From: Roseobacter sp. MH60115
GTDB taxonomy: Bacteria; Pseudomonadota; Alphaproteobacteria; Rhodobacterales; Rhodobacteraceae
Reading direction: 5' to 3'
Length of the DNA stretch: 64,000 nt
Assembly: GCF_015644665.1 (NCBI RefSeq)
Contig: NZ_JADOBQ010000001.1
Coordinates: 372,001-436,000, forward strand
Shown in pieces: positions 6,883 through 62,864 of this stretch. The first letter of the stretch is position 1. The number at the start of each line of letters is the position of its first letter. The notes below the pieces were generated by a model. It was not told where the DNA came from. It ran no database searches and saw only the letters and a program-made list of their open reading frames with translations. Made by a program: the position numbers and the translations under genes.

Positions 6883-7095
6883 AGTCTTACCTCGTTTTTC
6901 GCATGGCCCGTGAACAAACAGGTCATTTTGCCAAGGGTTTGCCTGCGCATTGTGGCAATTTAGGGATTAACGCGTGTCAGACGCGCGGCTTTCTACCGGA
7001 TATCGCAACAATCGTATCTATCGCTTGCGTCTTTGCAGCGCGGCAAAAAGCCAATCGGCGCAAGCTCGGAGACCCACGAACCCAGTTCGAAAAAA

Positions 7096-7124
7096 GAACC
7101 GCCCCTTTTGGCAAGAGGCGGTTC
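7096..7124 (-). terminator. Terminator behind the downstream Flp pilin gene
   Basis: Perfect 8-bp stem: GAACCGCC at 7096-7103 pairs with GGCGGTTC at 7117-7124. On the minus strand it is followed by six T residues (7090-7095 read in reverse). It lies 23 bases after the stop of the pilin gene at 7148. Confidence 0.8.
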
Positions 7125-7147
7125 CGATCAATCTAATCAGTATGATG

Positions 7148-7348
7148 CTATGGTGAAGAGGTGCCAATTTGGCCAACAACTTGCGTTCCGAGGAAGCTCT
7201 TGGTCTCGGCTGTGACGCCAGACGAACCAGCGCGGAGTTCAAGTACAAGAGCGACCGCAAGTCCAACCACCGCAGCAGTCAAGACCACCCAGTCTACAGT
7301 TACAGCCCCGGCCTCATCCGTTTTGAATTTTCTAAAAGCGCACAACAT
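7148..7348 (-). CDS. Flp-family type IVb pilin (copy 2)
   Basis: A 66-residue Flp prepilin: a short basic leader, then DEAGAVTVDWVVLTAAVVGLA, with presumed cleavage after the glycine and one hydrophobic helix. Canonical Flp pilins have Glu-Tyr at positions 5-6 after cleavage; here they are Asp-Trp. The tail keeps the TKSFLGTQVVGQI pattern shared with the neighbouring pilin. The ribosome site in front of 7348 is weak, unlike that of copy 1, which suggests lower expression. It is flanked by its own terminator, so it behaves as a separate unit or a read-through product. Confidence 0.9.
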   Translation of the reverse strand: MLCAFRKFKTDEAGAVTVDWVVLTAAVVGLAVALVLELRAGSSGVTAETKSFLGTQVVGQIGTSSP

Positions 7349-7395
7349 AAGTTAAGCTTTCGATTGAGGAACCTTGTGTGGGTCCGGGTAAAAAG

Positions 7396-7427
7396 AGGGC
7401 CGCGTTCAAGTGAATGAATGCGGCCCT
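7396..7427 (-). terminator. Terminator behind the upstream Flp pilin gene
   Basis: An 8-bp stem (AGGGCCGC 7396-7403 with GCGGCCCT 7420-7427). It is followed on the minus strand by a CTTTTTA run and on the plus strand by TTTTGTTT, so it could work in both directions. It lies 39 bases past the stop of the pilin gene at 7466. Together with the hairpin at 7096, it makes each pilin a separately terminated unit. Confidence 0.75.
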
Positions 7428-7465
7428 TTTGTTTGAGTTACGCTACAAGGGCGCCCGAACATCTG

Positions 7466-7696
7466 TTACGGGGTTGTAGGCGTTGTCGGTGCTGCAGGTG
7501 CTGCAGGTGCGCCGATGCTACCCACGGACTGGGTGCCCAGGAACGAAGATGTCGCAGCTGTCAGGTCGGTCGCGCCGGTCTGAATGGAGCTGTATGCGGC
7601 AATCGCCAGGCCGACAACAGCAGCTGTCAGCACGACCCAGTCAACCGTCACGGCACCGTCTTCGTCTTTGCGGAAGTTCTTGATAAACTTAATCAT
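7466..7696 (-). CDS. Flp-family type IVb pilin (copy 1, probably the major pilin)
   Basis: A 76-residue prepilin starting MIKFIKNFRKDEDG, then AVTVDWVVLTAAVVGLAIA. The start at 7696 is preceded by a strong GGAGGGAC ribosome site; an upstream in-frame ATG (7729) has none. The processing motif again has Asp-Trp in place of Glu-Tyr. The C-terminus is a proline/alanine/threonine tail absent from copy 2. It is the first gene of the tad cluster and has an AT-rich leader of about 350 bases shared with the divergent transglycosylase gene, where the promoter must lie. Confidence 0.92.
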   Translation of the reverse strand: MIKFIKNFRKDEDGAVTVDWVVLTAAVVGLAIAAYSSIQTGATDLTAATSSFLGTQSVGSIGAPAAPAAPTTPTTP

Positions 7697-8048
7697 GGTA
7701 TGTCCCTCCAAAGGATCAATTACATTCACTTAGTAACCTTGCCGTCCTCAGGAACCGTCTCTCTCGCTTGGCCCGTCCGACTTGGTATGCACCTATATAG
7801 CCAAGGGATTGGGGCATGATTTTGGCGGCAAATGTGACTTTTGAGGATTCTAAGCAAATAATTGTAGGAAAAAACGTAACCCAATGAATCCGAAGAGATT
7901 TTTTTGCTTTTGAAGTTTATAATTCGTTAAAGTGAAGCCCGAATGTGGCAAAACCGCCGCGTTCGCGGGGCGGATTCACTGGTGTGACGCAGGTTTCTCT
8001 GCGATGCTGTGGGAAAAACAAGGCAAAAGCAGAGTGTGAGCAGTCGAT

Positions 8049-8873
8049 ATGCGTATCGTTCTATGTGGCGTGGCGATTGCCGCGGCCTTTCCCATCTATT
8101 CCGCCTGGGCCGACACCCCAAAACCCTTCCCGGTCTTTGAGGCCAAGCGGATTGGTGTTCCCCAAAGCGGACAAAAGCGCATCCAGGTGCAGATTGATCC
8201 TGCGGCGCAAAAAGCCGCCCTTGCGGTGCCCCTCCCACAGCCCAATACCCCCCAAACGGCGCCGGACGTGCCGCGTACTGCGCAGCCGCTTGGTCAATAC
8301 GGGTGGTTCTGGGACAAGGTGTCACCCTCCATTTTCGACGTGCAGCCGGGCCGGTTGGAGACCATCATGGAGGTGCTCACCGGGTCGGGAAAGGTTGCGG
8401 CCCCCCGATTGCAACACATGCAGAGCATCGCTCAGGCCAACGGGGTGGAGATCCTGAAATCCACCATCGGTACGCGGGTCTCGCCTGCGCTGGTGCTCGC
8501 GGTGATTTCGGTTGAGTCGTCCGGACGGGTGGACGCGACCAGCACTGCAGGGGCGCAAGGCCTTATGCAGCTGATGCCCGACACGGCGGCCCGTTTTGGC
8601 GTGCAGGACAGCCTCGTAGCGGCCGATAACATCGCAGGTGGTGTCAAATATCTCGACTGGCTGATGGGGGAGTTCGCAGGCGATCCGGTGCTTGTGCTGG
8701 CCGGATATAACGCGGGCGAAGGATCGGTGCGCAATCATGAAGGGGTGCCGCCCTTTGCCGAAACCCGCGACTACGTGCCCAAGGTGCTGGCCGCCTTTCA
8801 GGTGGCCCGCGGGTTGTGCAAAACCCCGCCGGAGCTGATCACGGATGGCTGCGTCTTTGCGGCGATGAACTAA
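8049..8873 (+). CDS. Secreted lytic transglycosylase (SLT domain)
   Basis: A 274-residue periplasmic muramidase of the Slt70-type family that cleaves peptidoglycan between MurNAc and GlcNAc. It has a signal peptide (cleavage near AWA-DT) and a proline-rich linker to about residue 80. The SLT domain starts near 125: catalytic Glu156 in VISVESSGR, then GAQGLMQLMP, NIAGGVKYL and AGYNAGEG. It is divergent from the tad cluster. A role in making room for the pilus secretin is possible but unproven. Its 3' end overlaps the convergent small acetyltransferase by 4 bases. Confidence 0.9.
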   Translation: MRIVLCGVAIAAAFPIYSAWADTPKPFPVFEAKRIGVPQSGQKRIQVQIDPAAQKAALAVPLPQPNTPQTAPDVPRTAQPLGQYGWFWDKVSPSIFDVQPGRLETIMEVLTGSGKVAAPRLQHMQSIAQANGVEILKSTIGTRVSPALVLAVISVESSGRVDATSTAGAQGLMQLMPDTAARFGVQDSLVAADNIAGGVKYLDWLMGEFAGDPVLVLAGYNAGEGSVRNHEGVPPFAETRDYVPKVLAAFQVARGLCKTPPELITDGCVFAAMN

Positions 8874-28261: not shown

Positions 28262-29130
28262 AAAAGGCGACCGGCAACCGCATCCAGTTTCGCCATCAGG
28301 GCCGGATCGCGGACCTCGGGCGCGGTCAAAATCGCGTATTCCAATGCGCGGTCGCATCCGTGTGGGCAGGGCGCGCGCTCGGACCTGAGCAATGCGGGCA
28401 GGCGGCGCACCAACTCGCGGCCCTTGTCCGCGTTGCCCATCAGCGTGGCGATGATCTGGGTCACGTCCACCTCGCCGTGATCGGGGTGCCAGCTGTCGTA
28501 GTCGGTGATCATCGCGACAGAGGCATAGCAAAGCTCGGCCTCACGGGCGAGTTTCGCCTCGGGCATATTGGTCATGCCAATCACATCCGCGCCCCAGCTC
28601 TCGCGATACATCTTGGATTCGGCAAGTGTCGAGAATTGCGGCCCCTCCATGGCGAGGTAGGTGCCACCTTTGTGCACCGTAATGCCCGCGTCTTTCGCGG
28701 CGATGTCGCAGGCATCCGTCAGGCGCGGACAGGTCGGGTGGGCGACGGAGACATGGGCCACGCAGCCCGTGCCGAAGAAGGATTTCTCACGCGCGAACGT
28801 GCGGTCAATGAATTGATCGACAAGGACAAAGTCACCCGGCGCCATCTCTTCTCGGAACGAGCCACAGGCCGAGATTGAAATCACATCCGTGCAGCCCAAC
28901 CGTTTCAGCGCGTCGATGTTCGCGCGGTAGGGCACGGTTGTCGGGCTGTGCACATGGCCACGCCCGTGGCGGGGGAGGAAGGCCATCTCGGTCCCGTCCA
29001 GCCTGCCCGTGAGAATCGCGTCCGACGGGGTACCCCAGGGGGTTTCCACGCGGGTCCAGCTGGCATCCTCCAGCCCATCGATGTCGTAGATGCCAGAGCC
29101 GCCAATCACGGCGATCTTGGGTGCGGTCAT
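28258..29130 (-). CDS. mtnP: S-methyl-5'-thioadenosine phosphorylase
   Basis: A 290-residue purine nucleoside phosphorylase-family enzyme that splits methylthioadenosine into adenine and methylthioribose-1-phosphate. Signatures: AVIGGSGIYDIDG, PRHGRGHVHSPTTVPYRAN, GGTYLAMEGPQFSTLAES and GMTNMPEAKLAREAELCYA. The start at 29130 (MTAPK) gives the usual length. It is translated in coupling with the DUF2927 gene and feeds adenine to apt, which lies 1.4 kb downstream. Confidence 0.95.
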   Translation of the reverse strand: MTAPKIAVIGGSGIYDIDGLEDASWTRVETPWGTPSDAILTGRLDGTEMAFLPRHGRGHVHSPTTVPYRANIDALKRLGCTDVISISACGSFREEMAPGDFVLVDQFIDRTFAREKSFFGTGCVAHVSVAHPTCPRLTDACDIAAKDAGITVHKGGTYLAMEGPQFSTLAESKMYRESWGADVIGMTNMPEAKLAREAELCYASVAMITDYDSWHPDHGEVDVTQIIATLMGNADKGRELVRRLPALLRSERAPCPHGCDRALEYAILTAPEVRDPALMAKLDAVAGRLL

Positions 29131-29273
29131 GGTATGCTCCGTTCTGTGTCCGGCTTGGATCGTGGCGGGAATAGGCGGTGAGATCAATGGGGTGGGCAGG
29201 TTGATTTTTCGTGAGCAGCACGTGCGTCAGTCCCGCCGGATGATGCCGGTCACGGCGGCGGCCGCAAGACCTG

Positions 29274-30827
29274 TTACAATCCAGCCCGTGGTGGCGCGAC
29301 CCAACGCCACCACCACAGAAACGTTCCCCAAGCCCCGCGCGAGACCGATGGCGCCCAGGCATCGGTCTGGCCGAACGCGATGATCGGAATGGCAATGTCC
29401 GCACCATAGGCCAGCGCATTGAACGTCTCCCAGTCGCGGCCCGGCGCCACGTCGGGCCATTTCTGCTCCGGTGTCTCCGGGTCGGGGGACCATCCGGTCG
29501 GTATGACTTCACCGATCCAGACATGGGCGGGCGCCCCCTCAACAGCGTGATGCGCAAGCCACCCCGGTGACACCAGAACATGCGCGGAATTCGGGGTGAT
29601 GCCGCCTGTCTGCCACGCCCGGTCGGCAAAAACGGCGCTGAGCGCGATCAAGGCAAACAGGATCATCACGCTGCGAAACGGGTGATAGCCATATCCCACC
29701 ACCATGCGTGCCAGAAAGGACCACAGGATGACGTGGAAATTGATCTGCCGGAGGGGCACACCGTCTTCTGGTGTCCCGTTATTGAGATTAACTGCACTGA
29801 AAAAGCGGTGCCGCAGCAAACGCCGCTCCCGCTCGGCGAGGATATCGCGCGCATCGCCGTCCTGCCCCATCTCGCGGTAGACCTTGGCCAGCTGGGTATA
29901 GGGCTGGGGGTAGAACTCATGGCCCCAGGTGCTGCCCTTGGCGAGCCAGTCGAGCCGGTCAGAGAGCCGCGGAAACTCTGCATTCTCCATGCGCGAATAG
30001 ATAAATCCGTCCAGAATGAGTTGGTCTTTTGGTGGCCAACTGTGCGGATCATCCGCCAGGGTGCCCACCTGTGCCGCGTTTAAATCGATCACGCCCTGGC
30101 CTGTTCTGACACCGCGAAAGAGGAAACCCTCCATCACCTGCGCGCCTTGGGCGTAGAGCGCGTGTTCCGAGGTCGCGTTGAATGTGGCGCCGTCGCAGTC
30201 AAGCTGCCCGCCGATGGTGGCGCTGTTGACCCTGACGGTTGCCTCTGCGGTTATGCTGCGCAGGAAGACGCTCCCCGTTACCTGCGCGCCTTGGGCGTTG
30301 AAGGCGTCACCGAAGGTTGCGTTGAATATGGCGTCGTCGCACTCAAGCTGCCCGCCGATGGTGGCGCCGGTTACACGGACAGTTGTCTCGGCGGTGACTT
30401 TGCGCAGGAAAATGTCGCCCTTTAGCTTTGCGCCTTGGGCGTTGAGCGCTGGAAACGCGCTGCCGTCCAGATTGAGAAGTTGCAATTTCGCCTGAAGCGC
30501 CGCAATTGGGTTGTCAAAACGGCACTGGATGAGCCCGGTGACGCCCTGTGCTTTTGCGAAGTTCAGGTCCAAGGCGCCGGTGACATGGGCGCCGTAGAGC
30601 ACGATGCCCCAATCGGCGATGGGATGCGTTTTGCAACCACCGGTGATGAGATAGCGCAGGACATTGGCACGGATGTGGACCTGCGGGTTCGGCGTGCCTT
30701 TTGCGGGAACCGCATCGCCCAGATAACAGGGCTTCCCGGCCAGACAGGCACCGAGGAGCTTTTCTTCGGCGGGAGTAGGGCCATCGAGCAGGTCGTCAAT
30801 GTCGGCGCGGGTGCGGATGAGGGGCAT
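29274..30827 (-). CDS. Membrane protein with beta-helix-like repeats; apparent frameshift near the 3' end
   Basis: A 517-codon frame. Residues about 150-250 hold two 45-50 residue tandem repeats (pattern TVRV-x-x-ATIGGQL-x-CD-x-A-x-FNAT ... AQGAQV), suggesting a right-handed beta-helix. A charged linker and a membrane helix near RSVMILFALIALSAVF follow, then a periplasmic stretch with ALAYGADIAIPIIAFGQTDAW. The frame then ends in a non-typical WRWVAPPRAGL. A second frame (29227 to about 29300) continues as TTGWIVTGLAAAAVTGIIRRD, a plausible last membrane helix. One indel near 29300 would join them. The function is unknown; the gene may be mutated or mis-sequenced. Confidence 0.7.
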   Translation of the reverse strand: MPLIRTRADIDDLLDGPTPAEEKLLGACLAGKPCYLGDAVPAKGTPNPQVHIRANVLRYLITGGCKTHPIADWGIVLYGAHVTGALDLNFAKAQGVTGLIQCRFDNPIAALQAKLQLLNLDGSAFPALNAQGAKLKGDIFLRKVTAETTVRVTGATIGGQLECDDAIFNATFGDAFNAQGAQVTGSVFLRSITAEATVRVNSATIGGQLDCDGATFNATSEHALYAQGAQVMEGFLFRGVRTGQGVIDLNAAQVGTLADDPHSWPPKDQLILDGFIYSRMENAEFPRLSDRLDWLAKGSTWGHEFYPQPYTQLAKVYREMGQDGDARDILAERERRLLRHRFFSAVNLNNGTPEDGVPLRQINFHVILWSFLARMVVGYGYHPFRSVMILFALIALSAVFADRAWQTGGITPNSAHVLVSPGWLAHHAVEGAPAHVWIGEVIPTGWSPDPETPEQKWPDVAPGRDWETFNALAYGADIAIPIIAFGQTDAWAPSVSRGAWGTFLWWWRWVAPPRAGL

Positions 30828-42977: not shown

Positions 42978-43472
42978 CTACACAGCCGCCTTGTTGATCT
43001 CGGAACTTGCCAGTTCGGTCATTTCCCGATCGCCGCTGTAGCAGGCGTCGAGACAGGTCTGCAACACGGCTTTATCCTCCGGCAGATCAAGGCGCCCGGC
43101 AAAGGCGGCGAGACACCCGTAGCCGGCAATCGCGTAATGGACCATGCGCTGATACTGTGTGATGATCATCGCATCACGCGCGTCGTTGTCGCCAAAATCC
43201 TCCTCGATCGCATGTGCCTTGGCCTCTTTGACAAGACCTTCCATGCCCTTGCAGTGTTCACCGTTCGGATCCGCGTCGTGACGCCGCACAAGTGCCGCAA
43301 CCTGTTCCATGCCGTCGCGAATGCCTTCCACACCCTTTTGCAGCAGGCTGCGCAGATCTTCATGCGTCGCCGCATCGGCGAGCGCCTCTGTCATCTCGGC
43401 GGCCTGTTTGTTCGCGCTATAGATGTCTTGTAACTGATCGACATAGACCTCTTTCAGGCTGTTCATACTCAT
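42978..43472 (-). CDS. DUF892 (YciF-like) ferritin-fold protein
   Basis: A 164-residue helical protein of the DUF892/YciF family, associated with osmotic and oxidative stress. The family pattern is clear: YVDQLQDIYSANKQA, KGMEGLVKEAKAHA and MIITQYQRMVHYAIAGYGC. Compared with E. coli YciF as I recall it, carboxylates that would bind a di-iron centre are changed (YSAEKQ to YSANKQ; EHYEIA to VHYAIA). It belongs to an alphaproteobacterial subgroup that may not hold iron. It lies 110 bases downstream of its divergent paralogue. Confidence 0.88.
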   Translation of the reverse strand: MSMNSLKEVYVDQLQDIYSANKQAAEMTEALADAATHEDLRSLLQKGVEGIRDGMEQVAALVRRHDADPNGEHCKGMEGLVKEAKAHAIEEDFGDNDARDAMIITQYQRMVHYAIAGYGCLAAFAGRLDLPEDKAVLQTCLDACYSGDREMTELASSEINKAAV

Positions 43473-43582: not shown

Positions 43583-44074
43583 TCACTGAAGGCGCTGGTC
43601 TTCCCCGTTTTCGGTGATCATGTCGTTCAGCTGCACGCAGATGGAGGCCAGGCACTCACTGCTTGTCCGGAGAGCGTTCCTGGCATCGGTACGCCCCAGT
43701 GTTTCGGCAAAATTGGAAAGCAGCTGCAGCCGCTGGGCCTCGAAAGATCCGATCTCGTTGCTGGAGAGCAAAATCGCCACATCCACAAGGGCGGGTTCGT
43801 CTATCCGGTCGATCAGGTCGAAAAGATCATCGACCATGGCGGGCACGGCGGTCGGGTCTCGTCCACTCAACTGGTCGGCAACGACCCTCATGGCTTCTTC
43901 GGTGCGGTCGGCGTTGTCCCGCACGACATCGAGATAGAGGTTAAGGAGCTTGCGCAAGCCGTCGCTTTCAGCAGCCGAGACCATAAAAGGGATGTGCTGC
44001 GCCAGAAAGCATGCGCTGGAGTGGATGTCGCCGAGACGGCGGGACAGAAGATCTTCAGCCGAATAGACGTCCAT
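43583..44074 (-). CDS. Divergent DUF892-like helical protein
   Basis: A 163-residue all-helical protein that follows the DUF892 layout: a first helix with LLSRRLGDIHSSACF, then a long helix pair and a final one with LASICVQLNDMI. Almost no metal-type Glu/His pairs remain. The ATG at 44074 is chosen because AAGGAG lies six bases upstream, inside a longer frame whose upstream ATGs have no such site. One TCAAnnTAnnTTGA element lies 79 bases upstream. The family link is by pattern only. Confidence 0.65.
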   Translation of the reverse strand: MDVYSAEDLLSRRLGDIHSSACFLAQHIPFMVSAAESDGLRKLLNLYLDVVRDNADRTEEAMRVVADQLSGRDPTAVPAMVDDLFDLIDRIDEPALVDVAILLSSNEIGSFEAQRLQLLSNFAETLGRTDARNALRTSSECLASICVQLNDMITENGEDQRLQ

Positions 44075-44152
44075 AAGCCGCTCCTTCATATGGTGACCGG
44101 AAATGGTCGCACCCATCACCAACGAGTAAGCCCCTCTCGGGGCAGGGCTGCA

Positions 44153-44166
44153 TCAATCTATCTTGA
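44153..44166 (-). promoter_or_regulatory. TCAAnnTAnnTTGA element (site A)
   Basis: The plus-strand sequence is TCAATCTATCTTGA. It lies 79 bases upstream of the DUF892-like start (44074) and 33 bases after the end of the Crp/Fnr-type gene. The same 10 fixed bases occur at 45153 and 49830. It is an imperfect palindrome, as expected for a dimeric regulator. Confidence 0.55.
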
Positions 44167-44198
44167 AGACGGCGCGGATCGCGCCCGACGTGCGGCGT

Positions 44199-44936
44199 TC
44201 AGGAGGGGAACCACGAGGTGTCGAGCGTCGCGTACCGGTCCGAAAAATCGACCATGTCGCGCAGCTTGTCTTCATAGCCCAGCGTCAGCGTAGCCCCGTT
44301 CCGGGAAATCAGGCCCGCGTCTTCCATTTCCCGGATTGTTTTGCTGACATAGGTATGTGTCAGGCCAAGGGCATCGCCGATTTCATGCTGGTTCATCGGC
44401 ATCCGGATCGTGTTGCTCATGGCCTTGTTGGTCACCCGAAGCCGGGCAATGATGTCGAGAAAGAAATAAGACAGCCGTTCGCGGGCATCCATGCGCCCCA
44501 TGGCGCGCAGCGTGTCGATGACGCAGGCATGATCGCGGTTGGCGATGGAGAACATCAGCGCGGTCAGCTTGGGCGATTCCCGGAAAATGACGTCGAGCTT
44601 GCTCTTGGGAAAGGGGCACAGGCAGCCATCTTCGGAAGCCCGGACATTGCAGGTCGCCTCCTCGAACGAGATGTCGGGAAAGCCGATGATGTCGCCGGGA
44701 TGAAGAACCCGGATGATCTGTCGCCGACCATCGGGCATGTCGGTGTAGGAATAGAACCAGCCCTCCTTGACGACGTGAAGGTACTGCAGTTCGTCTCCCT
44801 CGCTGTAAACCTCCTGATGCCGGTAGTAATTGCGCTCGTGCTCCTCCAGCGCCGCGAGATGCTTTTCCGCAATGTCGTCCAGATCCACGTAGTAGGACAG
44901 CTTTTCCACAAGGCAGCTTTTACTCTGGGTCGACAT
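44199..44936 (-). CDS. Crp/Fnr-family transcriptional regulator with unusual recognition helix
   Basis: A 245-residue regulator: a cyclic-nucleotide-binding-like barrel (about 25-130; EVYSEGDELQYLHVVKEGWF, RVLHPGDIIGFPDI), a dimer helix and a winged helix with MNQHEIGDALGLTHTYVSKTIREME. Cysteines at 8, 96, 105 and 107 do not match the FNR iron-sulfur pattern. The recognition helix reads THTYVSK where FNR has VETISR; the Glu and Arg that read TTGA are Thr and Lys, so a non-FNR target is expected. Three TCAAnnTAnnTTGA elements lie within 5 kb, one of them 217 bases upstream. Confidence 0.9.
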   Translation of the reverse strand: MSTQSKSCLVEKLSYYVDLDDIAEKHLAALEEHERNYYRHQEVYSEGDELQYLHVVKEGWFYSYTDMPDGRRQIIRVLHPGDIIGFPDISFEEATCNVRASEDGCLCPFPKSKLDVIFRESPKLTALMFSIANRDHACVIDTLRAMGRMDARERLSYFFLDIIARLRVTNKAMSNTIRMPMNQHEIGDALGLTHTYVSKTIREMEDAGLISRNGATLTLGYEDKLRDMVDFSDRYATLDTSWFPS

Positions 44937-45152
44937 GTCACCCTCCTCTTTGTGAGCCCACCAAGCCGGCTCCCGCAGTTGGTGTAACCGGGGACGGCAC
45001 GCTTTCGTAAGTCCGCACAGAAGCGGACAAATCTGTTTCCTCTGAGCTTAGCACCAATAGGGCGCAAAGTCAGAGGATCGCCATGAATTGGGTCCGTTTC
45101 ACGATGCCCCGGTTCAGATTTTCATGCTGCGCACGTAAAGATCATGGCGGTT

Positions 45153-45166
45153 TCAATATAGATTGA
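45153..45166 (+). promoter_or_regulatory. TCAAnnTAnnTTGA element (site B)
   Basis: TCAATATAGATTGA, matching 6 of 7 palindrome pairs. It lies in the intergenic region between the divergent Crp/Fnr-type gene (217 bases from its start) and the PRC-barrel gene (155 bases from its start), so it could serve either or both. Confidence 0.55.
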
Positions 45167-45320
45167 GATCGGCCTTCTCTGCCTTGGATACGATCAGGCG
45201 ACAGACAGAAGGCGAATGGCGTGCTGCCACCGTATCCCTGTCTGCAAAACCGAAGGCCCGCGCCCTGTGGCTCCGCCATACTGCGGGCATTTTTGTCGAT
45301 CTCAGAAGGAGACCTGCTTC

Positions 45321-46130
45321 ATGAAAAGACTTCTCATCTCAACCGCGATGGGTTTGATGCTGACGACATCGGCGTTCGCCGATGCGCACTCAGGCGCGAT
45401 GATGACGTATCAATCCGAACAAACCGGAGATATCTATGCATCCAACCTGATCGGCATGCGCATCTACTCCGCCGAAGCGGATTACGATGCGCTGACCGCT
45501 GACAGCGTCATGCAGGACGATGCCGAACAGAACTGGGACGACATCGGTGAGATCAACGATGTGATCCTGAGCCGTGACGGGCAGGTCAAGGCGGTGATCC
45601 TGGGTGTTGGCGGTTTCATCGGCATCGGGGAAAAAGATGTCGCTGTCGACATGAGCAGCATCAAGATCGTGAACGAAAACGACGATCCGGGTGATTTCTT
45701 CCTCGTGGTCAAGACCAACAAGGAGGCTCTGACCGACGCGCCCGCGTATGAGCGGCAGGACGATGTCGCCATGGCCAACGATACCGTGACGTCAGCCGAC
45801 CGCCCGATACTGGCGCCCCCGGCTGTCGAACGCGATGGCTATGAGGTCGCAACCCCGGATCAGCTGACCACCGAGGATCTCACCGGCGCGCGGCTCTATG
45901 GGGCCAAGGATGAGGACATCGGCGAGATCGACCAGCTGATCGTTGATGACAACGGAAAGCTGCAACAAGCGGTTCTGGATATCGGTGGTTTCCTCGGGAT
46001 TGGCGAGCATCGCATTGCGGTCGCGATGGATGAACTCAAGATCCTGCGGCCAGCCGAAGGCGGCGACGTGCGTGTCTACATCGACGCCACCAAGGAAAAT
46101 CTGGAAAGCCAGCCAGAATACGAGGGCTGA
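45321..46130 (+). CDS. Periplasmic tandem PRC-barrel protein
   Basis: A 269-residue exported protein. A signal peptide (MKRLLISTAMGLMLTTSAFA) is followed by two PRC-barrel domains, each with the same core: DIGEINDVILSRDGQVKAVI then GVGGFIGIGEKDVAV, and DIGEIDQLIVDDNGKLQQAV then DIGGFLGIGEHRIAV. PRC barrels mediate protein binding; secreted tandem forms are frequent in alphaproteobacterial stress loci, with no known biochemical role. The start has an AGAAGGAG site. A strong terminator follows 52 bases after the stop. Confidence 0.9.
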   Translation: MKRLLISTAMGLMLTTSAFADAHSGAMMTYQSEQTGDIYASNLIGMRIYSAEADYDALTADSVMQDDAEQNWDDIGEINDVILSRDGQVKAVILGVGGFIGIGEKDVAVDMSSIKIVNENDDPGDFFLVVKTNKEALTDAPAYERQDDVAMANDTVTSADRPILAPPAVERDGYEVATPDQLTTEDLTGARLYGAKDEDIGEIDQLIVDDNGKLQQAVLDIGGFLGIGEHRIAVAMDELKILRPAEGGDVRVYIDATKENLESQPEYEG

Positions 46131-46182
46131 TAGAGCGCCTTCCGACAGCATGGATCTGTCATATCCCTGGTAACGAGTAACG

Positions 46183-46218
46183 ATGCGCTCCCCCGGTCTT
46201 CGGGGAGCGCATTTTTTA
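46183..46218 (+). terminator. Terminator after the PRC-barrel gene
   Basis: An 11-bp stem (46183-46193 with 46202-46212), ATGCGCTCCCC against GGGGAGCGCAT, followed by TTTTTTAT. It is a textbook intrinsic terminator on the plus strand. It also separates this gene from the convergent SpoIIAA-like gene. Confidence 0.9.
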
Positions 46219-46245
46219 TGGGGGGAGTTCTATCCGTCGGGCGGA

Positions 46246-46659
46246 TCAGCCCTGCGCGATGTCGTCGTCGGCTGCGGCGGTGCCGACAAAACGCCAGGCC
46301 TCATCTTCTTGCGATGTCTCGAAAGTCTTGGCGTCAACCGGCAGGATCTTGTCCATGATGGAGATCATTCGGCTGGCGCCGTCCGGTGCGCCGACCACGG
46401 CATATTTGTCGACCTTGAACAAGGCCCGCCAACGCGATTCCAGCACATCCCCGTCGAAGAGCGCATCCTTGTCGCTGCCGGTATAGCCGCTCATCCGGAT
46501 CAACATGTTGACCTTGTCGTGCCGGTCGAAGGCATCGTTCATGTATTTGGCAAGTGCCTCTGCATCGTCGTCCGACACATGGCCGGTCACATCAAAGGCA
46601 TAGACCGTGTCGCTGTGTGTCGGGATTTCTCTCACGGAGGGTAAGGTCAGGTGGGTCAT
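46246..46659 (-). CDS. SpoIIAA-like (STAS-fold) protein
   Basis: A 137-residue protein of the SpoIIAA-like family (PF11964 type): VYAFDVTGHVSDDDAEALAK, a beta-strand core with VNMLIRMSGYTG, and VDKYAVVGAPDGASRM. Despite the name these lack the phosphorylatable serine context of true anti-anti-sigma factors, and their role is unknown. They often occur in stress gene clusters. The ATG at 46659 has an AGGAG site. A GGAAC-N17-AGTT promoter-like element lies upstream (46730-46755). Confidence 0.85.
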   Translation of the reverse strand: MTHLTLPSVREIPTHSDTVYAFDVTGHVSDDDAEALAKYMNDAFDRHDKVNMLIRMSGYTGSDKDALFDGDVLESRWRALFKVDKYAVVGAPDGASRMISIMDKILPVDAKTFETSQEDEAWRFVGTAAADDDIAQG

Positions 46660-46729
46660 TCGGGTCTCCTGCTGGCGTGAAACTGGATTGCCATCGCGCC
46701 GGTGCCGTCCGCCGCGCCGACATGTCTTC

Positions 46730-46755
46730 AACTGTCAGACTGGAGCAATCGTTCC
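46730..46755 (-). promoter_or_regulatory. EcfG-like promoter candidate for the SpoIIAA-like gene
   Basis: Minus strand: GGAAC (46755-46751), 17-base spacer, AGTT (46733-46730). The ATG is 70 bases beyond the -10. The -10 departs from CGTT in its first base, so this is one of the weaker members of the set. Confidence 0.4.
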
Positions 46756-46770
46756 CGGCTGACGTTGCAC

Positions 46771-46780
46771 TAGATTGATG
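46771..46780 (+). promoter_or_regulatory. Half-site of the TCAAnnTAnnTTGA element
   Basis: TAGATTGATG shares ten bases with the reverse complement of site A (CATCAATCTA), but the other half (TTGCAC) does not match. It lies between the divergent SpoIIAA-like gene and the HAD gene. It may be a weak site or chance. Confidence 0.25.
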
Positions 46781-46860
46781 GTGACCGTGCTGATCGTTGC
46801 TAGATCGGACCCACAACGCAAACCGGTACGCGGTCCTTTGCCGGTACCACCATTGGAGAT

Positions 46861-47526
46861 GTGAAATTGCCCCTCAAAGCAGTACTTTTTGGATCCATCG
46901 GAACCCTTGTCGAGACATCGGAACTGCAGCGCCAGGCGTTCAACCAGGCTTTTGCCGAAGCAGGTCTTGAGTGGAACTGGGACCGCGAGAGCTACAAGGC
47001 GCGCCTTGCGAAGTCGGGCGGGCGGCGGCGGATCGAAGACTATGCGCGCGAGCGCGGTATCGATGTCGATGCAGAGAGGCTTCACGCGCGCAAGACAGAG
47101 ATTTTCGACGCGGCCATCACCGCGCGCGGTCTCTCCCTGCGACCGGGCGTGTCGGGTGTGGTCACTGCCGCCAAGGAACAGGGCATCAGGCTGGGGTTTG
47201 TCACAACCACGTCGCGGCAGAACGTCGATGCGGTGTTTGCGGCTCTGGCGGGGGATCTCTCTGCGGAGGATTTCGATTTCGTTGGCGACGCAACCATGGT
47301 CGATCAGAGCAAACCGGCACCGGACATCTACCGGTACGCGCTTGACGTGCTTGCCCTTGCCGCGTCGGATTGTATTGCCATCGAAGACACGCCGGTCAGC
47401 ATGAAGGCCGCGCGCGGCGCGGGGATCGATTGTGTGGCTTTTCCGGGGGATTATGCGGATCGCAGTGGCTTTCCCGCCGATGCCCGGATTATGGACAGGC
47501 TTTCCACCGAGGCGCTGCTACGCTAG
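46861..47526 (+). CDS. CbbY-like HAD-fold protein lacking the catalytic aspartates
   Basis: A 221-residue protein of the CbbY/phosphoglucomutase-like HAD group: cap region RQAFNQAFAEAGLEWNWDRE, motif II GFVTTTS, motif III Lys in VDQSKPAPDIY, motif IV CIAIEDTPVSMKAA. Motif I, normally FDxDGTL, reads FGSIGTL: both the nucleophile and the acid/base aspartate are gone. It is therefore unlikely to be a phosphatase or mutase of the usual kind. It starts with GTG at 46861. Confidence 0.85.
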   Translation: MKLPLKAVLFGSIGTLVETSELQRQAFNQAFAEAGLEWNWDRESYKARLAKSGGRRRIEDYARERGIDVDAERLHARKTEIFDAAITARGLSLRPGVSGVVTAAKEQGIRLGFVTTTSRQNVDAVFAALAGDLSAEDFDFVGDATMVDQSKPAPDIYRYALDVLALAASDCIAIEDTPVSMKAARGAGIDCVAFPGDYADRSGFPADARIMDRLSTEALLR

Positions 47527-47643
47527 CGCCAGAAGATCAATAGATCGGATCAGACCCGAGCAGGCACTGCGGCGGACGTCAACGCCCGCCGACATGATCG
47601 TGACGCAAGCCTCTTGAGGGGCAGCGTTGTCCCGGGCAACACC

Positions 47644-48729
47644 TTACGACTTGGGTGTGCCGAGATCCTGAGATTTGGCCTCGGCCTCTGCGGCGTCGGC
47701 GACGCGCTTGATCGCCGTCTTCGCCTTCTGCTTGGCGGTTGTCGCGGCGGTCTCTCCCGATGCGTTCTGATCCGCCTCCGCCTTGATGTCGCTGGCTGCT
47801 TCTCTGGCCTCTTCACCTGCTGCCTGCGCCACCTTGCGGAGTTTTTCCTTCTCCTCACGGAACACCCGCTGGGCTTCGGCCATGGCCGCGTCGCTGCGTT
47901 CACCGAGGTAGTCATCTTCGACGCGACTGCGCGGCAGGGCTGCCGCGACGGCGGCCCCGGCAGCCAGGGCAAGCGCCCCGGCAATCAACGGCTGCTCTTC
48001 AAAAAGGTCAACCGCCCGGTCGCGGCCCCGTCGGGCCTGACGCACAGCGGCGTCCCGCGCCTCGACGGCCCGTTGGCGGGCGGCGATGATACGATCCCGC
48101 GCCTGATCGCTGAAGCCTTCCGTGCCCTCCGCTAGACGGGCCCGCAGGTCCGATGCCGTGTCAGACAACTGGCCGACGGCGCCTCCAACACTGTCGCGCG
48201 CCGCCTGCAGCTTTGAGGATGCCGCTTGGGTCGTGGATTTCGCGGCATCGGCGACATTGTCTTTCAAACTATGCCCGGACTGCGCATCTGACTGAGCGCC
48301 ATCGCCATCCCTGTCCGTGTAAGGCATCGTCCGCGCCCAGGACGGATCATGCGCATGGCGCTCGGTCTCCCCGCTGGGAATATGACGCGGTCTGACGTCG
48401 CCGCGTTCCCACTGGTCGTCATATCCATAGTGCCGTTCGCGACGCTCCCAACGCCGTGCCGGGGCGGCGGTGCTGCCAGTTCCGCTGCCAAAAATCAGCC
48501 ACGCGAGCCCGACGCCGGTCAGCGCGATTGCCATTGGGTTGTCCTTGACCGATTGCGAGATCGATCTGCCGATATCGCCTCCGTTTTCCCGCAGGTGGTC
48601 GGTCACCTTGCGGGTGACGGCCTCAACCGAAAACCTGTCCTGCAGATCCTCCAGCGTGTCCGTCAATCCGGCGCGTTCGCGCTCGATCTGACGTTCGATT
48701 TCTTCGGGGCTTCGGGTTTTAGTCGTCAT
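47644..48729 (-). CDS. DUF3618 membrane-associated protein with long helical tail
   Basis: A 361-residue protein. The DUF3618 segment comes first (SPEEIERQIERERAGLTDTL), then a short membrane helix (NPMAIALTGVGLAWLIFG), an Arg/His-rich linker, and an Ala-rich amphipathic region with a second hydrophobic stretch (LIAGALALAAGAAVAAALP). The tail is Lys/Ala/Glu-rich and LEA-like. The gene overlaps the preceding holin-like gene by 11 bases. The family has no known biochemical role but is widespread in alphaproteobacterial envelope/stress loci. Confidence 0.85.
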   Translation of the reverse strand: MTTKTRSPEEIERQIERERAGLTDTLEDLQDRFSVEAVTRKVTDHLRENGGDIGRSISQSVKDNPMAIALTGVGLAWLIFGSGTGSTAAPARRWERRERHYGYDDQWERGDVRPRHIPSGETERHAHDPSWARTMPYTDRDGDGAQSDAQSGHSLKDNVADAAKSTTQAASSKLQAARDSVGGAVGQLSDTASDLRARLAEGTEGFSDQARDRIIAARQRAVEARDAAVRQARRGRDRAVDLFEEQPLIAGALALAAGAAVAAALPRSRVEDDYLGERSDAAMAEAQRVFREEKEKLRKVAQAAGEEAREAASDIKAEADQNASGETAATTAKQKAKTAIKRVADAAEAEAKSQDLGTPKS

Positions 48730-49117
48730 TGTATGCCTCCTTGACGGCCGCCGCATCGCGTTGGACATTCTTGGCTGTCCGGGTGGGGGCCAAGTTGCTG
48801 AGTTTAAGATCGGTCATGCCCTTGTGCGCCATGCCATAGGCGACAGCAGCAAGCGCCACGCCCACGATGAGCGCAGCCCAGCCGCCATGCAGCCCTGCTT
48901 CCGTGAGCCCTGCGACAACTGCTGCCACCAGCACATTCAGCGCCGTCAGCGCAATGATCACGGCGCCGGCCAGCAGTCCGATGGCGACACCGGCGTTTGC
49001 GATGTTTTCATTGATCTCGGCGCGCGCCAGATCGACCTCGTTGCGCACCAGGGAACTGACGCGGCTCATCGCGTCGTTCAAAAGCCCGGTTGTTGATTTG
49101 TCGGAATGCGTGTTCAT
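48719..49117 (-). CDS. Phage-holin-superfamily-III-like membrane protein (YqjE type)
   Basis: A 132-residue protein with an N-terminal amphipathic helix (SSLVRNEVDLARAEI) and two membrane helices (about 40-70 and 78-98). This is the layout of the putative Actinobacterial Holin-X / YqjE family, which is not phage-derived in this setting. It overlaps the preceding gene by four bases (ATGA) and the DUF3618 gene by 11. The set is typically found next to DUF3618 proteins. Confidence 0.85.
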   Translation of the reverse strand: MNTHSDKSTTGLLNDAMSRVSSLVRNEVDLARAEINENIANAGVAIGLLAGAVIIALTALNVLVAAVVAGLTEAGLHGGWAALIVGVALAAVAYGMAHKGMTDLKLSNLAPTRTAKNVQRDAAAVKEAYNDD

Positions 49118-49686
49118 AGAAGACCTCCCTTGTCGATATTGGCCGCCGAAGCGCCAGGGTCGGCGGATGACGTGCCGACCGACGTGGTCCCACGCGACGC
49201 GTGTGACCGCGCGGCATCGTATCCAGGGTCTTCCGAACCGGTCTTGGATGCCTTGGCAAAGCGTACTGCGGCAAAGCCGACAAGGGCTGCCGCGCCGAGA
49301 AAGACCGCCGGATTGCGGCGTGAGATATCATTCAGGTCTGAGACGATCTGACCGAGGTCCTTGTCGCGGATGGCGTCCGACATATCGGCAATACCATCGG
49401 CGATCTGCCCCAGCGTGCGTTCCTGAGGCGACCCGCTGCGCATTTCCTGCGCCGCGGTGCGCAGCGCACTGGCGATGTTGTTGCCTTCTGCGGCCACGTT
49501 GTCTTTTGCCGCCTCCGCATGGGAGATCGCCGTTTGCTGTGCGTCTTTGGCGTAGGTACCTGCCTCCTCCGAGACGGTCTCGGCGAGCGCCTTGGCCTGT
49601 TTTTTTGCTTTTTGAACCGTGTCGGTCTGGTCCGGTTGCGTTTGTGTTGCTGACGTCGTCTGAGATGAGGGACTGCGCGTCGCCAT
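49114..49686 (-). CDS. LEA-like hydrophilic protein with one membrane helix
   Basis: A 190-residue protein: a Thr/Gln/Ser-rich start, a long Ala/Lys/Glu/Gln helix-prone region, then RNPAVFLGAAALVGFAAVRF (one membrane helix) and a flexible Ser/Gly tail. It resembles 'nutrient deprivation-induced' proteins of rhizobia. The ATG at 49686 follows CAGGAGG. It is translated between the 22-residue peptide and the holin-like gene and is coupled to the latter. Confidence 0.75.
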   Translation of the reverse strand: MATRSPSSQTTSATQTQPDQTDTVQKAKKQAKALAETVSEEAGTYAKDAQQTAISHAEAAKDNVAAEGNNIASALRTAAQEMRSGSPQERTLGQIADGIADMSDAIRDKDLGQIVSDLNDISRRNPAVFLGAAALVGFAAVRFAKASKTGSEDPGYDAARSHASRGTTSVGTSSADPGASAANIDKGGLL

Positions 49687-49702
49687 CTGAGCCTCCTGCG
49701 GG

Positions 49703-49771
49703 TTAAGTGATGAAATTGAGAATCGCGAGTACGACCACGACCAGGCCGATGAGGTAAAAAACACTGTGCAT
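49703..49771 (-). CDS. 22-residue single-helix membrane peptide
   Basis: A tiny gene: 22 codons beginning MHSVFYLIGLVVVV and continuing hydrophobic to the end. It has a strong GGAGGGTGG ribosome site six bases before the ATG, and TAA is followed 16 bases later by the next start. One hydrophobic helix occupies nearly the whole peptide. It heads the four-gene operon, and site C of the TCAAnnTAnnTTGA element lies 59 bases upstream. From memory, similar 22-30 residue peptides occur in other alphaproteobacteria but are seldom annotated. Confidence 0.7.
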   Translation of the reverse strand: MHSVFYLIGLVVVVLAILNFIT

Positions 49772-49829
49772 GCGGGCCACCCTCCTTGTATGTTCCAGGC
49801 TCAGGGTACCGGCGCGGATTTGCGGCGTA

Positions 49830-49843
49830 TCAAGATAGATTGA
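49830..49843 (-). promoter_or_regulatory. TCAAnnTAnnTTGA element (site C)
   Basis: TCAAGATAGATTGA (plus-strand reading), 59 bases upstream of the 22-residue peptide that starts the DUF3618 operon. The same ten fixed bases occur in sites A and B. Confidence 0.55.
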
Positions 49844-50044
49844 AGGGCGCGCGGAGCACCGGCGCGGTCTCGCGCATCAGTTGGAAGGGTGGCGGCGTGG
49901 CCTAGTGTCAGGGAATGTTGCGCGGGCAGGGTGCGCCGACAGTCAGGGGCGTGAGGAGGACCGAACGCATCACTTAAGATCGATGGTCCAGACGAGAAGC
50001 GTTATCGTCAGGCGTTCGTCTGAACCCGCTAGTAGGACATGAAA

Positions 50045-59258: not shown

Positions 59259-62200
59259 TCAGACGACAATGAAGTCTTCTGCAGAAAGATCGAGATTTCT
59301 GCTCAGCTGTGCAAACTGGATCGCTTCGCCCTCACCAGAGCCGTCGTCGTCATAGAACAGCGCCCCATCGTCGATGTCATACAGGATGCGATCATCGCTA
59401 TCTCGGCTTACCCCTGCCGTGCTTTGATGAAATGCGCCAAACGAAAGCGCACCATCATCGCCAAGGTTATCGAAGATGGTGTTGTCCAGCAGGATCAGGT
59501 CTTCACCAACGTCAAAGTCCCTGATCCGGTCCACGTTGCCATCCCCAAGGGCTGTCGAGAACCGGAAAGAATCCTCGCCCAACCCGCCAACAAGCGTGTC
59601 AGCCGCAAGCCCTCCGTCCAGCAGATCACTGCCCTCACCACCGTTCAGCCTGTCGGCGCCAGCTTCGCCTGGTTCTGTGGGTGCTGGCGGGAAATCCACC
59701 GACACGTTCAGTGTGTAAGTCGATCCTTCCGGCACCGTCTCAGCCCAGCCATTGCCCGGTGCATCGGGTGACCAGCTGCCTTGCAAGATGTAGTAGGTGC
59801 CGGTTTCTTCAACGACATAGACCGTGCTGGAGTCCCGCGTGGAGGCCGAACCGGGGTCGCCGCCGCCGTCGTCATTTTCGGCAACGATGTCGCCGCTGCT
59901 GTTCAGCAACCGGATCCAGCTGTCATGCACATTTGGATCGGCGATGCCATCAACATCGATCGATAGGATCGTTCCGGCGGCCAGATCGATACTGTAATAA
60001 CCGCCCAGGCCATTCCCGGTGGCTTCGACCGTGGTGTGCAGAACGGTTGTGGAATCGAAAATGTCGGGGTCCTCTTCCAGCGAGAAGTTGTCCGAAATGT
60101 CGAAGGCTGTTGCGATTGAATTGTTCGTCGCATCCGGTCCAAGCGTGGCATATCCCGTGCCCAATCCCGGCGTTGGCAAGGCATCACCCTGATAGGCGAA
60201 ATCCCCAAGCAGCGTGTCATCCCCGCCGCCGCCGCGCAGAGTATCGTCACCGCCCTGACCGGTCAGCACGTTGGCGCCCGCGTCACCTCTTATCAGGTCG
60301 TCAAATCCAGAACCGGTGAGGTTTTCAATCGAGACATAGGTGTCCCCTTCGGACATGTCGCGTCTCAGGTTGAGCCTGACACCGCTGGTCGCGTCAGAAT
60401 AGTCCGCTGTATCGCTGCCAGCGCCACCGCTCAACAGATCGGGCCCGCCGCCGCCGGTCAGCAGATCGTCGCCCGCGCCGCCGGATAGCACGTTGGCGTT
60501 GTCATCGCCAATCAGCCAGTCGTCATGGAATGAGCCGATGACGTTCTCGAAATCGACAAGGATGTCGTGATCGATTGTCGTGCCGCGCCCAACGATTTGC
60601 ACAGGCCCATCCGCGTCCCCACCCGTGGCCCTGCCGTTGACGAGGTCCACGGTCACGCCGCTGGAGCTGTCTGTGTAAACAACCGTATCGTTACCTTCGC
60701 CGCCATCGAGATAGTCCTGGCCAGAGCCACCAATGATGAGGTCGTCACCACCCTCACCATACAGGATGTCGCCGTCATTGCCGCCATCCAATGTGTCGTT
60801 GCCGTCGCGACCGTTGAACACGTCGCCGCCACCCTGACCGATGAAGTGGTTGGCCGCAGAGGTTCCGATGAACCGGTCGATCCGATCATTGGATCCGATC
60901 AGACTCTCGATGCTGTAGAACGTGTCGCCAGATGCGGTACCGCCGTTTGCGACGTTCGTTTCGAGATTGACCAGCAGCTGGAAGGGGCTCTCCTGGCTGT
61001 AGTCGACGGTGTCGTTGCCCGCACCACCGCGGAAAACGTCGACGCCGGCCTGGCCGCTCATCATATCGTCGCCGTCACCACCGTCGAGCAGATCGTCACC
61101 CTGGCCACCAAAGAGCGTGTCATTGCCGTCGCCACCGTAGAGCGCGTCATTGCCGTCATCGCTTTCAGTCTGGTCTTCGAGGTCGGCAATGTCGATGGTG
61201 TTGTTGATGTCGCGGCTTGCAAGCGAGTCCGTGCCACCGATGAGGATGTCATCGCCGCCCAACCCGAAGATGGTGCTGCCTCCTGCGCCCCCGTCGATGG
61301 TCTCGTCGGTGCCATCCCCAACGATGATGTTGGTCAGCATATTGTCGCCAGACATGGACGGTGTCTCAACGGTATCTTCTTCGAGTTGGACAAGAGAACT
61401 GTCGACATAGATTATGTTTTCGACGTTCTCGATATTGCCAATGTCGAGGTCTCTTGACATCACGAAGACGGTGTCATTGCCGCCATCCTCTTCCTCACGC
61501 ACCACATCATCCAGCGAGTCGACAAAGTAGGTGTCGTCGCCACCGCCGCCCGCCATACGGTCACCGCCACTGCGGCCATCCAGAACATTGTTGCCGTCAT
61601 TCCCGATCAGAATGTCGTCATGTTGGCTGCCGATACCGTTCTCGATGTAGTATTCGGTCTCGTCGGCATTGTGCCCTGCAAAGATGGACACATTGTTGTT
61701 GTGGCCGTTGACGCTGGAAAACTGCCCGGCGCGCATATCCAGGATCGTGCCCGCGGTAGAACCGGAAAAGTCTATGGTATCGGTGCCCCCGGTGTCGTGG
61801 ATCACAAAGCCGATATCGCGCTGCATCCCGGACGAGGTGAGTTCGTAGCCATACTTCGAACTGTTGAAGCCATAGACATCGTCACCCGTATTCAGGTTGA
61901 TCGTCTCGTAGGTCCGCACGCCAGCCTCATCGACAGTCGAAAAATAGGTGCGGATGGCCGCTTCGATGTCTGCCATCAGCGGGGTCGCTGCGGACCAGCG
62001 GGTGTCTTCGCCGACATCGATCCCATCGAAATAGGACATGACGCTATATTGCTGACGGTCATAGATCCATGTGGCGTTGTTCAGATGGTTGATCTGCACG
62101 CCGCCGGGGCCGCTGTAGTTGTAGAGACCGGGATGGTTGAGGCCGAACTCGTGCCCCAATTCGTGAATGAAGGTGTCGAAAACATAGCCGCCAATGTCTG

Positions 62201-62864
62201 TGAGGTTGGGTTCCGTGTCGTGAAACCGCTGACCGACGCTGATGTACCGGTTGCTTGAAAATGCGCTCCCGTCGGATTGCTCGCCCACTTCGGGGCTGAC
62301 AATCTGCATCCAATCCGTGTCGGCATCATATGGTGTGTCATAGACGACTTCGAACTCGAACGGTGTGACCGAGGCCCACATCTCGAGCGCACCAACTGCC
62401 GCTTCCTGATAGTCAGGGTGGTTGCTCAACTCTTGAACGTTGATCCTGAGGGGCTCCGCTGCAATCTCCGGCGTCAGGCTACGGTTCAGCGCGCCGAGAT
62501 AGTCGAGATAGGCTTCGTAATCCTCACTCTTCCCAAAAGGATTGTCCGGCGTCTGATCGTTGACCCACCACGGGTCGTCGGTGTCGTCGGTTTCAAATTG
62601 CGCGGTACTGGACGCTTGAAGCGCCCCGTCATTTGAGTCCGTAGAAGCCGTTTCCTGAGTGCTGGCAGTGTTTGCGGATCCAGTATGGATGCGCGACGTG
62701 GTAGGTTCCTCGGTATCTACTTCGAGCGCTGCGGGATCAGTCTCCGGCTCTGGAACGGCTATTGCCGCCTCCAAGTCTGCTTGTAGTCCAGTCTCTTGAA
62801 AACCAATCTTTTCAAAAGAGGTCACTTTCTCGGGGCCGTACCCCAGTTGGCACATCATGCACAT
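59259..62864 (-). CDS. Serralysin-type M10 metalloprotease with RTX repeats and a PPC domain
   Basis: A 1201-residue secreted protease. A hydrophilic propeptide-like region (1-95) leads to the catalytic domain with zinc motif HELGHEFGLNHPG (His234, 238, 244; Glu235) and Met-turn YSVMSYFDG. RTX calcium-binding nonapeptide blocks (GGDGDDxLxGG type) follow from about 420 to 920. A bacterial pre-peptidase C-terminal (PPC) type beta domain (about 930-1095: ATAFDISDNF, YYSIDLAAGT) separates them from a last RTX block and a C-terminal secretion tail. No signal peptide is seen, as expected for type I export; the exporter is not in this window. Confidence 0.93.
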   Translation of the reverse strand: MCMMCQLGYGPEKVTSFEKIGFQETGLQADLEAAIAVPEPETDPAALEVDTEEPTTSRIHTGSANTASTQETASTDSNDGALQASSTAQFETDDTDDPWWVNDQTPDNPFGKSEDYEAYLDYLGALNRSLTPEIAAEPLRINVQELSNHPDYQEAAVGALEMWASVTPFEFEVVYDTPYDADTDWMQIVSPEVGEQSDGSAFSSNRYISVGQRFHDTEPNLTDIGGYVFDTFIHELGHEFGLNHPGLYNYSGPGGVQINHLNNATWIYDRQQYSVMSYFDGIDVGEDTRWSAATPLMADIEAAIRTYFSTVDEAGVRTYETINLNTGDDVYGFNSSKYGYELTSSGMQRDIGFVIHDTGGTDTIDFSGSTAGTILDMRAGQFSSVNGHNNNVSIFAGHNADETEYYIENGIGSQHDDILIGNDGNNVLDGRSGGDRMAGGGGDDTYFVDSLDDVVREEEDGGNDTVFVMSRDLDIGNIENVENIIYVDSSLVQLEEDTVETPSMSGDNMLTNIIVGDGTDETIDGGAGGSTIFGLGGDDILIGGTDSLASRDINNTIDIADLEDQTESDDGNDALYGGDGNDTLFGGQGDDLLDGGDGDDMMSGQAGVDVFRGGAGNDTVDYSQESPFQLLVNLETNVANGGTASGDTFYSIESLIGSNDRIDRFIGTSAANHFIGQGGGDVFNGRDGNDTLDGGNDGDILYGEGGDDLIIGGSGQDYLDGGEGNDTVVYTDSSSGVTVDLVNGRATGGDADGPVQIVGRGTTIDHDILVDFENVIGSFHDDWLIGDDNANVLSGGAGDDLLTGGGGPDLLSGGAGSDTADYSDATSGVRLNLRRDMSEGDTYVSIENLTGSGFDDLIRGDAGANVLTGQGGDDTLRGGGGDDTLLGDFAYQGDALPTPGLGTGYATLGPDATNNSIATAFDISDNFSLEEDPDIFDSTTVLHTTVEATGNGLGGYYSIDLAAGTILSIDVDGIADPNVHDSWIRLLNSSGDIVAENDDGGGDPGSASTRDSSTVYVVEETGTYYILQGSWSPDAPGNGWAETVPEGSTYTLNVSVDFPPAPTEPGEAGADRLNGGEGSDLLDGGLAADTLVGGLGEDSFRFSTALGDGNVDRIRDFDVGEDLILLDNTIFDNLGDDGALSFGAFHQSTAGVSRDSDDRILYDIDDGALFYDDDGSGEGEAIQFAQLSRNLDLSAEDFIVV

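Follow-up and report, generated by a model that had tools for sequence, protein, structure and literature searches.

Do three closely similar 14-bp palindromes, gathered around a gene for a Crp/Fnr-type regulator, serve as the operator through which that regulator acts? The question is raised by a stretch of 64,000 nucleotides of Roseobacter sp. MH60115 (contig NZ_JADOBQ010000001.1, positions 372,001 to 436,000; hereafter the window), in which a preliminary description had pointed out three such elements (boxes 1 to 3) and proposed the neighbouring regulator as the protein that binds them. We put at about 0.78 the probability that the 14-mer is the operator of this regulator, working by class II activation from near -41.5 on a small local regulon. 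We infer binding, activation and the geometry of the dimer from the sequence: a regulator dimer would bind TCAAT-N4-ATTGA, TCAATCTAGATTGA in its ideal form, at sites whose centre lies near -41.5, and would recruit RNA polymerase to promoters with a -10-like hexamer and no clear -35. The predicted regulon comprises a DUF892-like gene, a PRC-barrel gene and an operon of small-peptide, holin and DUF3618 genes; in Sulfitobacter, the same regulator-box pair would act on glycosyltransferase-type units and a DUF892-like gene.

All three 14-mers are present exactly where they had been placed and are more alike than was claimed for them, since boxes 1 and 3 are identical on opposite strands, each the reverse complement of the other, and box 2 differs by one base (Table 1). 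They are intergenic in our gene reading too. A scan of the window allowing up to one mismatch returned these three boxes and nothing else, which agrees with the earlier failure to find a further full match by eye; 100 dinucleotide shuffles of the window, scanned in the same way, gave a mean of 0.40 matches and a maximum of 2. The genome-wide scan suggested in the preliminary description yielded four exact matches to TCAANNTANNTTGA in 4.76 Mb (19 contigs), three of them in the window within 5.7 kb, while the fourth (L004) overlaps two open reading frames (ORFs), 157 and 119 codons long, and is possibly coding. Under a uniform model with intervals chosen post hoc (12 and 20 kb), the clustering has probabilities of 6e-8 in the window's genome and 5e-10 in the Sulfitobacter genome described below. 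A palindrome could fold into a short hairpin, and the boxes might accordingly have arisen by chance, or be hairpins or copies of a small dispersed repeat with no regulatory role; the shuffle and genome counts, the spacing to a -10-like hexamer and the flanking DNA, which is unlike from box to box, render this extremely improbable.

Phylogenetic footprinting had been named at the outset as the way in which the proposal could fail, through absence of the element from relatives that carry the regulator. The boxes accompany the regulator in relatives where it is 99% and 80% identical. In the closer one (G013, with which record L021 is taken to be the same), all three boxes are kept at 14 of 14 positions, next to DNA that is 84% identical over the 32 nt on the regulator side of box 1, 98% beside box 2 and 84.6% at 49844-49960 beyond box 3. 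This is a weak test, the genomes being close. The second relative, Sulfitobacter G451 (4.3 Mb), provides the strong test of the regulator-box link. Its four genome-wide matches (TCAATCTAGATTGA, TCAACATAGATTGA, TCAATCTAAATTGA and TCAAGTTAGATTGA) all fall on contig 15 between 24612 and 37975, spanning 13.4 kb around the regulator gene at 28907-29641. The 18.7-kb stretch of this genome designated L020 shares two genes with the window and no others, namely those for the regulator and the DUF892-like protein (blastp at E 1e-5, ORFs of at least 70 aa; the remaining matches are antisense ORFs of both shared genes). One of its boxes precedes the ortholog (56%) of the DUF892-like gene. Footprinting supports a link between the boxes and the Crp/Fnr gene of the window.

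The three window sites and the four Sulfitobacter sites (group A) define the palindrome TCAAT-N4-ATTGA with CTAG as the preferred centre. All seven have TCAA/TTGA arms and score 21.4-24.8 bits. In a palindrome search of our own making, TCAATCTAGATTGA was the top motif of group A, with a score of 82 against 40 for the best of three mononucleotide shuffles. Counts of exact 5-mer palindromes gave TCAAT-N4-ATTGA three times in two loci of group A; GC-rich words dominate in the other groups of loci, B to D. When up to two mismatches to TCAATCTAGATTGA were allowed, 3 of 6 matches in G000 and 3 of 7 in G451 lay off the island, each with a break in an arm or in the central TA.

A search for TCAAKATAGATTGA in 99 genomes, the window's own included, gave matches in five (G000, G013, G029, G056 and G080). 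In G000 and G013, which carry the regulator, the match lies between genes. The other three do not figure among the genomes with a regulator match in the family, genus and class searches given below, and their matches lie inside long ORFs, which in G029 and G056 resemble a phosphate-permease gene by eye and in G080 comprise 210 codons; we treated all three as chance. The G013 genome has five matches, three of them at the island; of the extra ones, L051 is in an ORF resembling the same phosphate permease by eye and L049 in no ORF of at least 80 codons. These data bear on the view that some other DNA-binding protein, whose gene lies elsewhere, uses the box and that the Crp/Fnr gene is nearby only incidentally. 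Regulator-box binding is indeed a prediction from sequence, and the box is absent from some relatives at 55% identity. However, the G451 boxes are confined to the surroundings of the regulator gene, among mostly unrelated neighbours, the three matches in genomes where no regulator was detected sit in long ORFs, and a 5-4-5 dyad near -41.5 suits the Crp/Fnr family, so that we regard another protein as very unlikely. With all four G451 matches around the regulator and those of genomes without a detected regulator in long ORFs, the original pairing of regulator and box appears well founded.

The position of the boxes relative to promoter elements was examined next to each box. The -10-like hexamers were first noticed by eye, both in the window and in the flanks of the sites, and were then scored, the sites outside the window being held out from the window-based choice of offset, although they were not unseen. 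Over ten gene-facing directions (box 2 and L020:15991 taken both ways), an offset of 22-24 ranked first of 59 windows, and none of 20000 shuffles was as good. The same offset ranked first of 59 for the four window directions (p = 7/20000) and second of 59 for the six directions outside it, five in L020 and one in L056 (p = 23/20000). Seven opposite directions, among which box 2 toward the regulator was counted, gave no signal, with an average of -6.2. TACGAT, TAGAAT and TAGGAT scored well and CTTACT, TAGGTA and CAGTAC poorly, and three of nine gene-ward scores were below 0.5. The best -35 candidates with spacers of 16-18 bp scored low in all ten directions (-4.4 to 1.5). Since an offset of 23 places the first -10 base 29.5 nt from the box centre, the box would lie near -41.5. 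The predicted promoters thus have the apparent layout of class II activator-dependent promoters, with the box near -41.5, a -10 present and a -35 absent. What the DNA itself shows is the boxes, the way they gather around the regulator gene in two lineages, and their spacing to the hexamer.

The same geometry could be taken for that of a repressor acting by occlusion of the -35 region, as the box spans about -48 to -35 and a protein sitting there could obstruct polymerase. The -35 scores argue otherwise, because such promoters look weak unaided, and a centre near -41.5 is an activating position in the family, as described for the dehaloboxes (PMC7062800). We consider repression unlikely and class II activation the better account of the spacing.

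Box 2 had been described as lying upstream of a PRC-barrel/regulator pair. A role as autoregulatory box is unlikely by the -10 evidence: toward the regulator, the best hexamer at a suitable offset is CAGCAT, which is not a good -10 match, and we rejected autoregulation through this box. It looks like a box of the PRC-barrel promoter. The half-site reported at 46771 (TAGATTGATG) is likewise present, but its role as a box is not established. The TAGATC at offset 23 from the imperfect box that includes it scores only 0.58, and although 21 of 21 bases of the half-site region are kept in G013, this conservation is uninformative given 93% identity across the entire intergenic stretch.

What kind of protein would read this box? 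Matches over cut-off to PF00027 (E 5e-16) and PF13545 (E 1e-10) place the regulator in the Crp/Fnr superfamily, and FNR proteins are its nearest solved sequence relatives (E 8e-19). It scores far under the NCBIfam cut-offs for FNR (78.8 bits against 228) and FnrL (77.1 against 300) and falls short of the CRP equivalog (29.5 against 266). Alignment to solved FNR bears out the earlier remark that Thr and Lys (Thr195 and Lys199) occupy the places of the FNR Glu and Arg; Ser198 is retained. The FNR combination of E-xx-SR with TTGAT-N4-ATCAA is found in neither the regulator nor the boxes, and the window contains no FNR box of the form TTGA-N6-TCAA, on which ground we rejected FNR-type binding at these promoters. 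Cys8 and Cys107 fall on two cysteines of FNR in the alignment, which in FNR are ligands of the [4Fe-4S] cluster. The remaining N-terminal FNR cysteines are absent, and the regulator lacks the four-cysteine set of the cluster. Cys107 is present in 18 of 18 aligned rows (lowest identity 32%) and Cys8 in 16 of 18, the two rows without it (L022 and Tistrella) stopping short of that position in the parts used. At a guess, a redox or thiol signal may pass through these two residues.

Among known systems, FLP of L. casei has a dithiol switch and a CCTGA half-site. Two-cysteine FNR-like proteins of the FLP type exist in Gram-positives (PMC5039431); the regulator resembles them in having two cysteines and not four and differs in host group and box. 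A thiol or redox switch is worth considering because the two cysteines stand at FNR positions and such proteins exist. FNR and FnrL, whose box is TTGAT-N4-ATCAA (PMC5398030), have a dyad of equal length, and FNR proteins are the nearest solved relatives, but the regulator has Thr195/Lys199 for Glu/Arg and is without two of the four cluster cysteines. The CprK/RdhK regulators recognize the dehalobox, TTAAT-N4-ATTAA (PMC3638464, PMC7062800), of which TTAATacacATTAA is reported to be centred at -41.5 (PMC7062800). They share with our case the Crp/Fnr family, a 14-bp 5-4-5 inverted repeat, a half-site ending in AAT and the -41.5 centre; here, however, the box is TCAAT-N4-ATTGA with centre CTAG in a stress-type gene island, not one of organohalide respiration, and the group-A sites do not carry the dehalobox letters. 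CrpK of Rhodobacter sphaeroides, described as sharing FnrL targets (PMC4344238), is a Crp/Fnr protein of the same order without the FNR N-terminal cysteine set. The exact box strings were not found in the open-licence papers searched, and the operator and targets of this subfamily did not turn up in the literature searched either. The geometry and the protein family are known; the letters of the box, the subfamily operator and the targets are new as far as that literature goes. A subfamily for which we found no study thereby gains a predicted operator, a promoter geometry and a target list, and there is a handle on the function of the common, unexplained stress-island genes DUF892, PRC-barrel and DUF3618.

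Relatives of the regulator were matched in 6 of 394 family genomes (E 1e-50), 8 of 19 genus genomes (E 1e-40) and 4 of 385 class genomes (E 1e-60), the own genome counted in each, and in 1 of 62 genomes of the G451 genus (E 1e-70), namely G451 itself. A search of genome contigs gave three loci and the plasmid collection five records at E 1e-30; no relative was found in viral contigs. On these counts, the regulator appears rare and scattered in this sample. On plasmid p1 of Paracoccus sediminicola (L056), whose regulator is 54.5% identical, a box with one mismatch (TCAATCTAGATGGA, 20.2 bits) precedes a catalase gene, with TAGGAT at offset 23. The same sequence precedes catalase in G241 (L032), where it is the sole match in the genome at up to one mismatch; the DNA is near-identical to L056, so the two count as one case. 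Besides catalase, the L056 regulator island holds genes for Ku, LigD, MgtC and YetF. It also has a cluster of glycosyltransferase genes that includes a PIG-L deacetylase and a methyltransferase, and it is of a similar kind to the Sulfitobacter island.

Several observations weigh against the operator reading. Only two lineages were found with a regulator at least 80% identical, since G013 is almost identical to the window. Among the seven loci of the 54-60% group, a strong box occurs in the near-identical pair L032 and L056 alone; L033 has one weak site (15.8 bits), and L031, L034, L037 and L022 (a 5.6-kb contig) have no site above 10.4 bits. Tistrella L057 (47% regulator) has none above 8.6 bits, and the 32-37% group no group-A-type site above 13.7 bits. 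The box is not demonstrated as general below 80% regulator identity. The palindrome search is convincing for group A alone and is no proof by itself, its shuffles being lenient; in groups B and D other motifs also exceeded the shuffles (72 against at most 38). Finally, the promoter weight tables were entered by hand, and the -10 matches are weak at box 1, L020:15991 (+) and L020:18056.

A different box accompanies more distant regulators. In six relatives from the genus of the window's genome, with regulators 32-34% identical, CTAATCTGGTTTAG has seven exact matches (two in G011), with one more in G002 that carries a mismatch; the window's genome has no exact match. Every exact copy adjoins the 32-34% regulator or, in the second G011 copy, an ORF with the C-terminal part of the regulator. 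In loci L038-L042 and L058, it lies between a DUF892 gene and a homolog of the box 3 operon, which is again headed by a homolog (MHNVFYLIGL...) of the 22-aa peptide. The two boxes share the core AATCT-N-G-N-TT. The flanks of CTAATCTGGTTTAG are partly conserved, which means that the palindrome does not stand out by conservation alone, and no -10-like hexamer was evident by eye at offset 22-24 from this group-D box. The comparison suggests that box and recognition helix change together: TCAAT-N4-ATTGA would go with HTYVSKT and CTAAT-N4-TTTAG with SIYVNKL, both boxes being followed by homologous small-peptide/DUF3618 operons. Two helix variants paired with two boxes on a homologous operon are useful for decoding Crp/Fnr specificity. 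More tentatively, and as something we think possible rather than probable, a two-cysteine Crp/Fnr subfamily (with CPFP and C-terminal SWFP signatures) and its own box might form a redox-gated portable regulon, spread across alphaproteobacterial replicons on different stress gene sets (an envelope/small-peptide operon, a glycan cluster, catalase), its box drifting with the recognition helix. If true, this would provide a naturally occurring series of variants from which the DNA specificity of Crp/Fnr proteins could be read. The second island copy in G011 (L058) has at 2348-2692 a 114-codon ORF that corresponds to the C-terminal part of the regulator only and is possibly truncated or frame-broken.

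Table 1. Boxes, hexamers and genes in the window and in related loci
Feature	Record	Position	Strand	Remarks
Crp/Fnr-type regulator	window	44199..44936	-	245 aa, cyclic nucleotide monophosphate (cNMP)-binding fold and HTH_Crp_2, recognition helix LTHTYVSKT
Box 1, forward TCAATCTATCTTGA	window	44153..44166	-	reads TCAAGATAGATTGA on - strand; precedes DUF892-like gene
-10-like hexamer CTTACT	window	44125..44130	-	offset 23 from box 1, weak
DUF892-like protein, predicted target	window	43583..44074	-	ATG at 44074 after AAGGAG
Box 2, TCAATATAGATTGA	window	45153..45166	+	precedes PRC-barrel gene
-10-like hexamer TACGAT	window	45189..45194	+	offset 23 from box 2
PRC-barrel protein, predicted target	window	45321..46130	+	N-terminus signal-peptide-like by eye
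Imperfect box TTGCACTAGATTGA, including half-site	window	46765..46778	+	before HAD gene; TAGATC at offset 23; unproven
Box 3, forward TCAAGATAGATTGA	window	49830..49843	-	reads TCAATCTATCTTGA on - strand; precedes DUF3618 operon
-10-like hexamer TACCCT (TACTCT in L021)	window	49803..49808	-	offset 22 from box 3
22-aa hydrophobic peptide ORF	window	49703..49771	-	first after box 3; AGGAGG upstream (strong ribosome site)
Second gene of presumed operon	window	49114..49686	-	no Pfam family at cut-off
Third gene, Phage_holin_3_6 (PF07332)	window	48719..49117	-	
Fourth gene, DUF3618	window	47644..48729	-	
Boxed gene, glycosyltransferase	L020	4776-5924		Pfam
Boxed gene, glycosyltransferase	L020	14911-15936		Pfam
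Boxed gene, glycosyltransferase-like	L020	16099-16710		Pfam, under cut-off
Boxed unit	L020	read from 18056		
CTAATCTGGTTTAG	L038; L039; L040; L041; L042; L058	7262; 9009; 8985; 8995; 10999; 3287		

Some neighbouring genes deserve mention. The window encodes two adjacent DUF892 proteins (42978-43472 and 43583-44074), the second much diverged (43 against 166 bits with the Pfam model), and it is only this diverged one that matches beside the Sulfitobacter regulator. The Sulfitobacter stretch L020 also contains, at 6724-8808 (-), a gene with glycosyltransferase and sucrose-6-phosphate phosphatase domains, sucrose-phosphate-synthase-like and possibly involved in osmolyte synthesis. Farther along the window, at 59259-62864 (-), lies an ORF of 1201 aa that carries RTX calcium-binding repeats as well as a domain like the C-terminal one of serralysin.

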